Below are positions 2,695 to 8,119 of a stretch of 30,203 nt of DNA, in pieces. Source of the stretch: a virus; the IMG/VR virus record IMGVR_UViG_3300047274_000161, positions 1 through 30,203 of that record; one strand, given 5' to 3'. The notes under the pieces are model-generated. The model saw nothing but the letters and a program-made list of their open reading frames with translations, had not been told where the DNA came from and did no database searches. Position numbers and translations under genes: made by a program. Numbering within the stretch: the stretch's first letter is position 1; every line of letters starts with the position of its first letter.

Positions 2695-3534
2695 CTAAAC
2701 CAGCGACAACCCTTTGATTGTGGACATTATGAACTTCACTCCGTCAGTTACTGGGTCTCCTGTGGCATCCTCCATTCTGTCAATAACGATATCCGCTTGG
2801 ATATTCTCGGCTTGTGTGACTGCGTGAGCCTGACCGTACGAACCGCCCTCAATCGCTAGTTTGCGTGCGGGACGCCAGTCAGTCTTCTCAAGGACACTGA
2901 ATCCGATACGGCGCAACATTGACGGATGAGCCATAGCGAACATCAGATTATCAACATCCAAACGCTCCTCAGATGAGTGAACCTTGCATAGTTGCGAGTG
3001 AAGCAAGTTCGTGTCATAATGGTCAAGTGTAGCGGACTCCAACCATACTTCCACGCCGACACCCAACTTGTTCAGCACATCCAGCAACGCAACAACGATT
3101 GCGCCACGATTACGAATGTACTCAGGTTGGACATGGCAGTTAGCCGCGCCATTCACAAGCACACGAACAACACGCCCCATGCGACCACTAGGGACGGTCA
3201 CATACTCCAACATATGTTCAGGTTCGCCGTGAATGAAACGGTCAATGTCCACACTGTCTCCGCTAGTGTCGTAGCACATCTCGAACACATCACCAAACGC
3301 CATGTTGATATGTTCCTCCATTTGATGGAAGATTTCGTCCACTTGTGGACGAATATCGTGCCAGCCAGTCAGGCACAAGTCCACAGCCTCGGCTAAGGAC
3401 TCTGAACCTGACCACTTGTTATTGCTACGCTTATCGGATGACGCGGGCTTCGGGTTATCACCAGCGTACCTAACAAGGTCGCCCAGTGACTCCCAACGCT
3501 CCACATGAACCTTACCGATAATCTCCTTGTGCAT
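2695..3534 (-). CDS. DUF7192-like phage protein, partner of the AAA+ ATPase
   Basis: Protein of 279 aa from ATG 3534 (a GTG one codon earlier is an alternative), overlapping the ATPase stop as TGATG. The order of conserved patches recalls the actinophage family I know as DUF7192: an N-terminal segment (ESLAEAVDLCLTGWHD), a central DTSGDSVDIDRFIHGEPEHM, then VLVNGAANCHV and IRNRGAIVVALLDVL. In such phages it often follows a MoxR/CobS-like ATPase, as here. The alternating strands and helices after residue 120 could be a von Willebrand A-like fold, which would fit the usual MoxR partner. That structural reading is inference. Confidence 0.65.
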   Translation of the reverse strand: MHKEIIGKVHVERWESLGDLVRYAGDNPKPASSDKRSNNKWSGSESLAEAVDLCLTGWHDIRPQVDEIFHQMEEHINMAFGDVFEMCYDTSGDSVDIDRFIHGEPEHMLEYVTVPSGRMGRVVRVLVNGAANCHVQPEYIRNRGAIVVALLDVLNKLGVGVEVWLESATLDHYDTNLLHSQLCKVHSSEERLDVDNLMFAMAHPSMLRRIGFSVLEKTDWRPARKLAIEGGSYGQAHAVTQAENIQADIVIDRMEDATGDPVTDGVKFIMSTIKGLSLV

Positions 3535-4914: not shown

Positions 4915-4921
4915 AGACCCT

Positions 4922-4948
4922 ATCAAAGACGCACAGACCCGCACACAC
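4922..4948 (-). repeat. 27-bp left-arm repeat, copy 1
   Basis: On the minus strand the copy reads GTGTGTGCG, five variable bases (GGTCT), then GTGCGTCTTTGAT. It begins ten bases after the YubB-like stop codon and lies 65 bases before the AAA+ start. In this copy part of the repeat also pairs with its upstream flank (GACCCG-loop-CGGGTC), so it could end one transcript as well as start another. Confidence 0.75.
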
Positions 4949-4958
4949 GGGTCATGCG

Positions 4959-5588
4959 TTATGCGAACATTACCTCCTCCACCTTGTATTCGTAGTCGCC
5001 CGCAATATCAGCGAGCATATCGTGGAACGGCTCATAATCGTCGTCCTCCTCCATCGCCTTAGTGACGCTATCGGGAACTTCGATGTCCTCGCACTCATCC
5101 AAAAGCAGTTCCCCATTATGAACAACATAACAGCCTGCGAACATCATCCCAGTCTCTTCGTAAGTACCGCCGAACCACAACTCAGGGTACAACTTTGAGA
5201 TATGAATAATCAGTTGCGTACACGGACCCCACGCACTCTGAAACACAAACGCACAGTTGGAATACTGGTCTTTCTCGGACTTGATTACCTCACCGCTAGT
5301 GAAATCGGTTTCGCAATCACCCCACTTCGTACCCCAGTTCGCATACTCCCACTCATACCAGTCAGCGTGACCGTATTTCTCAATGTTACGCTTCTGCTGT
5401 TCTACAAGGGCTTTCTGCTTCTCCTCGTCGCTATGGAAACCCGCCATTGTTTCTTTGAGTTCCTGAGGACAAGGAACAAGTTGCGCCAAGCGAAACCCAT
5501 CCTCACCGTCACGAACATCCTCAACGAACTTGGAAACCTGCTCGTAGTTTCCTCGCACCGTCAAATTGTTGCTACACCAGTTCGGCAT
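4959..5588 (-). CDS. YubB/DUF1281-like ferredoxin-like-fold protein
   Basis: Protein of 209 aa opening with MPNWCSNNLTVRG, the hallmark N-terminus of the YubB/Api92-like (DUF1281) family found in plasmids and phages. Further family traits are the central WGTKWGDCE and a late strand-rich SAWGPCTQLIIHISKLYP, where family members have a conserved aromatic-Gly core. The fold is expected to be ferredoxin-like; the function is unknown, with no catalytic residues evident. The C-terminus is acidic. AGGATAGG precedes the start, behind a two-hairpin leader. Confidence 0.85.
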   Translation of the reverse strand: MPNWCSNNLTVRGNYEQVSKFVEDVRDGEDGFRLAQLVPCPQELKETMAGFHSDEEKQKALVEQQKRNIEKYGHADWYEWEYANWGTKWGDCETDFTSGEVIKSEKDQYSNCAFVFQSAWGPCTQLIIHISKLYPELWFGGTYEETGMMFAGCYVVHNGELLLDECEDIEVPDSVTKAMEEDDDYEPFHDMLADIAGDYEYKVEEVMFA

Positions 5589-6615: not shown

Positions 6616-6641
6616 CATCACCACCCTCCAGCCGTCAGCCT

Positions 6642-6668
6642 ATCAAAGACGCACGGATACGCACACAC
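6642..6668 (-). repeat. 27-bp left-arm repeat, copy 2
   Basis: The minus strand reads GTGTGTGCG, TATCC, then GTGCGTCTTTGAT. It begins directly after the stop codon of the 55-aa gene. Part of it pairs with the end of that gene, giving an 11-bp stem with one bulge (GCACGG/CCGTGC plus TACGC/GCGTA). It thus sits at an operon boundary, about 115 bases before the next start. Confidence 0.75.
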
Positions 6669-7247: not shown

Positions 7248-7438
7248 TACGCACTCACCTTACACGCCCGAAGAAACCGCTCACGGTCAAACGCCCGATT
7301 ATCCTGCTCAAACCACCTCGCAAGCGAACCCGCGACACTCGCAAGGACAACCTCAACACCGTTCGGTTCGCCACCGTTACGCTCAACTTCGTGGGCAATC
7401 GCCTGAGCGACCGCCTCATACTCCTTGCGACTAGCCAT
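7247..7438 (-). CDS. Small actinophage-like helical protein, 63 aa
   Basis: The start is taken at ATG 7438 (MASRKEYEAVAQAIAHEV), coupled to the previous stop as TAATG. The end of the protein, NRAFDRERFLRAC, is the recurring C-terminal pattern of a short family I recall from many actinobacteriophages (N-terminal AxAIAxE helix, then FDRxRFLxAC). Function is unknown; a helical bundle is likely. A longer upstream frame runs through the next gene and the tRNA-like element and is rejected. Confidence 0.7.
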   Translation of the reverse strand: MASRKEYEAVAQAIAHEVERNGGEPNGVEVVLASVAGSLARWFEQDNRAFDRERFLRACKVSA

Positions 7439-7584
7439 TACGCACCCGCCTTTCGCGTCATCTGTCCGTGCTGACCACACTTCACCTCGTACACGCGAAC
7501 AAACACCTGTGTTTGCTTCGCGCACTTCTCGCACGCATAGACACCTTTCGGCATCAAGCGTTCGACCTGCTTCTGCTTGCTCAT
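7438..7584 (-). CDS. Small zinc-ribbon protein, 48 aa
   Basis: ATG 7584 has GGGAGGTTCGTT upstream. CEKC (residues 18-21) and CGQH (36-39) with an intervening strand pair form a Cys3-His zinc ribbon. The product is basic (MSKQKQVERLMPKG, RKAGA). Comparable one-domain ribbons occur in many phage early operons, with unknown targets, possibly nucleic acid. It is the first gene after the tRNA-like element and an AACGG hairpin, and its TAA overlaps the next ATG. Confidence 0.65.
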   Translation of the reverse strand: MSKQKQVERLMPKGVYACEKCAKQTQVFVRVYEVKCGQHGQMTRKAGA

Positions 7585-7609
7585 AACGAACCTCCCAGTT
7601 CATTATCCG

Positions 7610-7632
7610 ACGGTTCACCCGTTGTGAACCGT
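7610..7632 (-). promoter_or_regulatory. AACGG-loop hairpin before the 48-aa gene
   Basis: A perfect 9-bp stem (ACGGTTCAC paired with GTGAACCGT) with an AACGG pentaloop on the minus strand, three bases after the tRNA-like element and 26 bases before the start. The stem is unrelated in sequence to the other AACGG hairpins, so only the loop and the position are shared. Confidence 0.65.
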
Positions 7633-7635
7633 TCG

Positions 7636-7679
7636 TGTGTGCGACGGGAATCGAACCCGTCCGAAGCACCAGCGCACAC
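7636..7679 (-). ncRNA. Miniature tRNA-like element (acceptor stem plus T-arm only)
   Basis: The minus strand reads GTGTGCG (7-bp acceptor arm), a 12-base linker CTGGTGCTTCGG, ACGGG-TTCGATT-CCCGT (5-bp T-stem with a canonical 7-base T-loop), then CGCACAC completing the acceptor, and a single A. The stems stack directly, as in real tRNA (7+5 bp). The D and anticodon arms are absent and no CCA is encoded. It sits between two leftward genes. RNase P accepts acceptor/T-arm minihelices, so a processing signal is plausible. Alternatives are a deleted tRNA or a fragment of a tRNA attachment site. Confidence 0.6.
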
Positions 7680-7693
7680 GACCCCGTGAGGGG

Positions 7694-7936
7694 CTACTTC
7701 TTCGCGCTCACCCGCACATAGGTGAAGAACACGGTCGGCACACCGTCCTCACGCTCGGGGATGGACACAGCAACCGCACGCTTCACGCGCACCTGCTGAA
7801 CCTCGCCGTCCACCTTGCGAACGGCAACCTCCGCACCCTCATCAGGCGCGTTGGTGGCGGGGAAACCCACCGTCCAGTCCGCACCCACTCGGGCGTAACC
7901 GCCGTACACGACGGCTTCTGTCTTCTTGCGTGCCAT
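7694..7936 (-). CDS. Small hypothetical protein, 80 aa
   Basis: The start is taken at ATG 7936 (MARKKTEAVVYGGYAR), with GAGGAGGTGCTGTG upstream. A longer frame back to 8197 would cross hairpins and repeats and lacks a site. The protein is strand-rich (GGYARVGADWTVGFP, VQQVRVKRAVAVSI, TVFFTYVRVSAKK) and basic at both ends. It is the first gene downstream of the left-arm control region. No family is recognised. Confidence 0.7.
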   Translation of the reverse strand: MARKKTEAVVYGGYARVGADWTVGFPATNAPDEGAEVAVRKVDGEVQQVRVKRAVAVSIPEREDGVPTVFFTYVRVSAKK

Positions 7937-7993: not shown

Positions 7994-8006
7994 AACCCGT
8001 CCTGCC

Positions 8007-8033
8007 ATCAAAGACGCACCGATGCGCACGCTC
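8007..8033 (-). repeat. 27-bp left-arm repeat, copy 3
   Basis: The minus strand reads GAGCGTGCG (two differences from the other copies), CATCG, then GTGCGTCTTTGAT. It lies just upstream of the two-hairpin leader of the 80-aa gene. Confidence 0.7.
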
Positions 8034-8092
8034 ACGCCGTGTGGCGTTGGCGTTGCGCTGTGTCGCTGTGTCGTTGCTAACAGTTGCCCCCC

Positions 8093-8119
8093 ATCAAAGA
8101 CGCACTGGTGCGCACACAC
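8093..8119 (-). repeat. 27-bp left-arm repeat, copy 4
   Basis: The minus strand reads GTGTGTGCG, CACCA, then GTGCGTCTTTGAT, followed by a run of six G. It is 86 bp upstream of copy 3 in the same orientation. Within this copy CGCAC-CA-GTGCG is a perfect small dyad. Confidence 0.75.

Follow-up and report, generated by a model that had tools for sequence, protein, structure and literature searches.

The window analysed here, a 30,203-nt stretch of DNA (IMG/VR record IMGVR_UViG_3300047274_000161), is part of an uncultured tailed phage whose early genes run leftward on the minus strand and whose structural genes run rightward. The early genes include those for a PD-(D/E)XK nuclease, DUF3846, DUF7192 and an AAA ATPase. 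By terminase the closest annotated relative (50.8%) is MW202803.1, a podovirus of 42 kb that was assembled from a spring, and the window phage is probably podovirus-like. Two co-directional early genes, designated A and B, are separated by a 109-nt gap that is home to a 44-nt tRNA-like minihelix on the minus strand (7636-7679). After the stop codon of gene A the gap holds, in order, a hairpin, the dinucleotide UC, the minihelix, ACGA, an 8-bp hairpin, a ribosome-binding site and the start of gene B, as listed here 5′ to 3′.

7694-7936, minus strand: gene A, 80 aa (MARKKTEAVVYGGYARVG...), upstream of the minihelix; no Pfam family
7682-7693, minus strand: 4-bp hairpin CCCC-TCAC-GGGG, directly 3′ of the gene A stop codon (from the fold)
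7673-7679, minus strand: acceptor-like 5′ strand GTGTGCG (from sequence and fold), with the predicted RNase P cut directly 5′ of it
7661-7672, minus strand: 12-nt linker CTGGTGCTTCGG, replacing the D and anticodon arms
7644-7660, minus strand: T-arm ACGGG-TTCGATT-CCCGT with a canonical T-loop (from sequence and a partial match to the Rfam tmRNA model); T-stem 5′ strand ACGGG at 7656-7660, loop TTCGATT at 7649-7655, CCCGT at 7644-7648
7637-7643, minus strand: acceptor-like 3′ strand CGCACAC (from sequence and fold)
7636, minus strand: discriminator-like A; the acceptor stem is followed by ACGA (7633-7636), not CCA
7611-7631, minus strand: 8-bp hairpin CGGTTCAC-AACGG-GTGAACCG (from the fold), between the minihelix and the gene B ribosome-binding site
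7591-7596, minus strand: gene B ribosome-binding site GGGAGG, in and beside the loop of a predicted hairpin
7438-7584, minus strand: gene B, 48 aa, a small cysteine-rich zinc-ribbon-like protein

Elsewhere among the early genes, a 30-nt repeat, GTGTGTGCGNNNNNGTGCGTCTTTGATRGG, occurs in four minus-strand copies (4919-4948, 6639-6668, 8004-8033 and 8090-8119) in gaps before early genes, and is probably an early promoter of the phage. A degraded copy of the promoter-like 30-nt repeat, D1, was considered as an explanation of the element and rejected, its alignment score ranking only 62 of 801.

Structure and occurrence of the minihelix

All 12 base pairs of the two stems are Watson-Crick, and the T-loop has its closing G-C pair, T54, T55, C56 and R57 as well as A58. 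The first-pass annotation had described a 7-bp acceptor stem, a 5-bp T-stem, the loop TTCGATT and a 12-base linker, and every one of these structural details was correct; the minus strand is added here. The same annotation held that the 7+5 geometry is unlikely to arise by chance, which is true of only one version of the statement. With any 7-nt loop allowed, about one such stretch is expected per strand of the window and three are seen on the two strands, so the geometry by itself is not rare. Once a TTCRA loop is required, on the other hand, none appears in 400 local shuffles or in 30 whole-strand shuffles, and 2.13 million strand-bases of other natural phage DNA contain none with the strict geometry, compared with one in the window.

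The gap as a whole is strongly structured (fold z = -3.8, more stable than 200 of 200 shuffles), as is the 44-mer (z = -3.05), and at all flank lengths tried the minihelix either has the lowest energy or lies no more than 1.6 kcal/mol above the structure that does. At some flank lengths the end of gene A can compete for the 5′ acceptor strand (pair probability 0.08-0.91), and in a 300-nt context with this competition the pair probability is 0.06.

ARAGORN calls neither a tRNA nor a tmRNA at the minihelix, and nothing in Rfam matches it at curated cut-offs. The mascRNA/menRNA transcripts, which are generated by RNase P, resemble it in keeping the acceptor and T-arm while the remainder is reduced. 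This family (RF01684) gives the best full-length Rfam match under lax filters, at 18.5 bits far below the gathering score of 42.5; it belongs to eukaryotic lncRNA processing, however, and the window element has no anticodon-like arm. The linker and T-arm together had been likened to the 3′ end of tmRNA (RF00023), a resemblance that survives for the T-arm ACGGGTTCGATTCCCGT (14.8 bits, where the cut-off is 47; model positions 347-363) and fails for the linker, which lies outside the match. The window element also differs from tmRNA in having neither a D-like loop nor a coding part, and its acceptor partner is local.

No other ribozyme or Rfam family was found in the gap by Rfam search with lax filters. 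The window has no complete type II hammerhead, by Rfam match or as a CUGANGA and GAAA core joined by stem II, and a hidden or permuted hammerhead was rejected, the core being absent. A blastn search against annotated phages gave no match. A 20-mer of the minihelix has three matches elsewhere in viral contigs; none is the element described here, and two resemble tRNA attachment fragments.

Structured RNAs at the same junction in related phages

Homologs of gene A are found in contigs L002 and L003 (70-76%) and, at 46-51% to the window protein, in the L134/L135 and L136 contigs, and wherever both genes are found the order of gene A, structured RNA and gene B is kept. The contig of a near-identical phage, L004 (92%), stops short of the A-B gap. 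In six other contigs the gap is occupied by a type II hammerhead (L002, L003 and L018) or by a third kind of RNA, a conserved, unclassified hairpin here called motif 3 (L134, L135 and L136/L137). The first-pass annotation had suggested looking for the minihelix in relatives, and none of them shares it; as a single case it offers no covariation. Structured RNAs of three unrelated kinds thus occur at this one junction, in every case immediately after gene A.

The hammerhead core and stems I, II and III are complete in the gap of L002, L003 and L018. In L002 and L003 the element begins at the gene A stop codon or a few bases past it and is ordered GGAC-GAAA-stem III-UC-stem I-CUGAUGA-GUCC, with stems that differ between the two yet are fully paired. 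In the more distant L018 a hammerhead stands immediately before gene B (61%), and upstream is an 81-aa gene that we call gene A-like by eye and by position. None of the three reaches the Rfam Hammerhead_II cut-off (L002 scores 22.5 of 37 bits), and judged by core and stems these elements are type II hammerheads, a self-cleaving class. A hammerhead pattern scan of viral contigs returned 43 stretches, and many of the contigs concerned hold homologs of early genes of the window; the related contigs that bear hammerheads have one to three per early region. Type II hammerheads (RF02276) clustered in phage operons have been read as cutting long phage RNAs into gene-length mRNAs (PMC3088659), and in the three relatives they lie between genes A and B, in the gap that corresponds to that of the window.

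Motif 3 was found through a gene B alignment search, in three distinct contigs (L134:378-447, L135:1391-1462 and L136:1393-1462) and in L137, which is like L136. It is a conserved 70-nt RNA made up of an outer stem of 6-7 bp, an internal loop that does not vary (UGGUUGAG/YRAUUGCUC) and a long hairpin. Between contigs it is 89-90% identical, while the adjoining gene A there is only about 60% identical. It has no Rfam match, and one strict pattern did not find it elsewhere in viral contigs. Motif 3 is a candidate for a new processing element or ribozyme.

A possible RNase P processing site and its alternatives

If the A-B transcript folds as predicted, 12 bp of stacked acceptor and T-stem with a canonical T-loop would start after the hairpin that closes the gene A message, and host RNase P could cut between C7680 and G7679. 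The upstream product would be a gene A mRNA ending in the 3′ hairpin (7682-7693) plus UC, and the downstream product a gene B mRNA with a structured 5′ end. These products would mirror the layout in the relatives (stem III-UC / stem I), where hammerhead cleavage would likewise give an upstream message that ends in a hairpin and a downstream message that starts with one. Unlike the hammerheads, the window element has no CUGAUGA/GAAA core and cannot cleave itself in the hammerhead manner; a trans-acting enzyme would be needed. The cut would then separate or stabilise the A and B messages. We infer the RNA cleavage, the part of RNase P in it and the separation or stabilisation of the messages, all three, from the predicted fold and the comparison with relatives.

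RNase P is a plausible enzyme by analogy because, as the first-pass annotation had noted, hairpins reduced to acceptor and T-arm are established substrates (PMC11143913, PMC11221534). Hairpins made of acceptor, T-stem and T-loop are cut by E. coli RNase P at the canonical position (PMC11143913), and the rate constants of cleavage come close to those for complete pre-tRNA (PMC11221534). The shape bound by bacterial RNase P is the stacked acceptor and T-stems plus the T-loop (PMC11221534, PMC11143913). The substrates AT1, pATSer and MD1 have, like the window element, a 7-bp acceptor and a 5-bp T-stem adding up to 12 bp, a canonical T-loop and G1-C72 (PMC11143913, PMC11221534). They are man-made, whereas the minihelix is natural, has a linker of 12 nt and a predicted hairpin as its leader, and ends in ACGA in place of a 3′ RCCA. 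RNase P normally meets a single-stranded leader, and here only UC is unpaired before the predicted 4-bp hairpin. That the end of gene A can capture the 5′ acceptor strand at some flank lengths also counts against a cut by RNase P. The C4 RNA of phages P1/P7 is a non-tRNA transcript cut by RNase P. RNase P sites of this sort, whether in phage or in bacterial mRNAs, are not known to form clean tRNA minihelices or to take the place of ribozymes. What the window element would have in common with these sites is a non-tRNA transcript as the proposed substrate, and bacterial polycistronic mRNA is among the transcripts cut by RNase P (Alifano et al. 1994, as cited in PMC11143913).

That the minihelix is a processing and insulation module in the leader of early gene B, cut by host RNase P, is a reading we hold tentatively, as quite possible but short of an even chance. 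A processing site in a polycistronic phage mRNA, one of the roles proposed at first pass, is nevertheless the reading best supported by the relatives, because one slot holds three unrelated RNA modules of which one is a known self-cleaving class. The hammerhead comparison turns that earlier guess into a testable hypothesis; its RNase P part remains inferential. The minihelix is probably an alternative route, perhaps via RNase P, to separating or protecting the A and B messages.

The minihelix may instead be a structural mRNA element that RNase P does not cut, in a run of stable hairpins that stop 3′ or 5′ exonucleases or set the translation of gene B, in which case the T-arm likeness would be convergent and hammerhead, motif 3 and minihelix would share only the role of a stable insert. 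We consider this possible though doubtful. It fits the structure of the whole gap, with hairpins flanking the minihelix on both sides and a ribosome-binding site in a hairpin, as well as the lack of a CCA end. It stays alive above all because motif 3, a long stable hairpin without known cleavage, fills the same slot, which also counts against processing. A mere hairpin, however, needs neither a canonical T-loop nor exactly 7+5 bp, a combination with no second instance in the natural phage DNA searched, and in three of the six relatives the same place holds a self-cleaving class.

That the element lacks a function of its own, having arisen by chance or as the degraded leftover of a T-arm captured from a tRNA or tmRNA, is unlikely. 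Chance should yield about one pair of stems of this geometry, with any loop, on each strand of the window, the word GTGTGCG is frequent in this GC-rich part of it, and there is one unconserved case; yet the T-loop requirement removes all matches in the shuffled and natural DNA searched, all 12 pairs are intact with no decay, and the position is the one short gap that holds RNA modules in relatives. It is highly improbable that the element is an attP site with the 3′ end of a tRNA or tmRNA gene of the host. Such sites do carry a T-arm and an acceptor 3′ strand, and contigs L048 and L050, which share the same 20-mer, resemble such fragments. The matching 5′ acceptor strand that is present here would not be expected in an attachment fragment, though, and the site lies inside an early operon with conserved neighbors on either side. 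No integrase is among the genes checked, which are part of the genes of an incomplete genome. The search for an identical host tRNA 3′ end, proposed with the original description, gave no exact match to the 21-mer or 24-mer (GGTTCGATTCCCGTCGCACAC, CTTCGGACGGGTTCGATTCCCGTC) in 84,980 bacterial and archaeal species genomes, which speaks against an attachment site as far as exact matches go. The remnant or attachment site put forward in that description is thus disfavored, and its suggestion of a decoy for tRNA enzymes has found no support.

RNA processing signals in phage operons are known already; what appears to be new is a tRNA minihelix in a hammerhead slot, for which we found no precedent in the open-access literature. 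A bolder version of the processing reading, which we think somewhat unlikely, is that the phage uses a minimal RNase P substrate of natural origin as punctuation in its early mRNA, that the minihelix replaced a self-cleaving ribozyme, and that such slots take interchangeable modules that cut RNA, motif 3 perhaps being a further and possibly unknown one. As a natural swap experiment, an exchange between ribozyme and minihelix at one junction would bear on the biological role of the many hammerheads in phage genomes. Should RNase P prove to cut the minihelix, then the selected function of the slot would be mRNA cleavage as such, and the element would be a natural counterpart to the minihelix substrates used for decades in RNase P studies.

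Further tRNA-like and hammerhead-like elements in phage contigs

A hammerhead-like type II element lies near the start of the early genes of MW202803.1 (1949-2003). The 3′ part of the element and the annotated start of the following gene overlap, and this phage also encodes an RNA ligase. In a hammerhead-bearing relative, L042, the leader of a gene C homolog contains a T-arm consensus hairpin, TAAGG TTCGATT CCTTG (3375-3397; the same in L012), with no convincing acceptor stem. The T-arm and acceptor 3′ end occur without the rest of a tRNA at L048:7562 and L050:5723, in L048 as a continuous 12-bp hairpin, and these two fragments are probably tRNA attachment sites. The 122-kb phage contig L016, which also has type II hammerheads, carries on its minus strand four tRNA-like elements with an acceptor and a T-arm (GTTCGAT), near 5358, 3693, 3574 and 3398, that ARAGORN does not call; at least one has a single long hairpin in place of the D and anticodon arms. 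Another phage contig encodes a tmRNA (L122:665-967) with an unusual repetitive predicted tag, VPIMGLIVPIMGLIVPIIGAELA.
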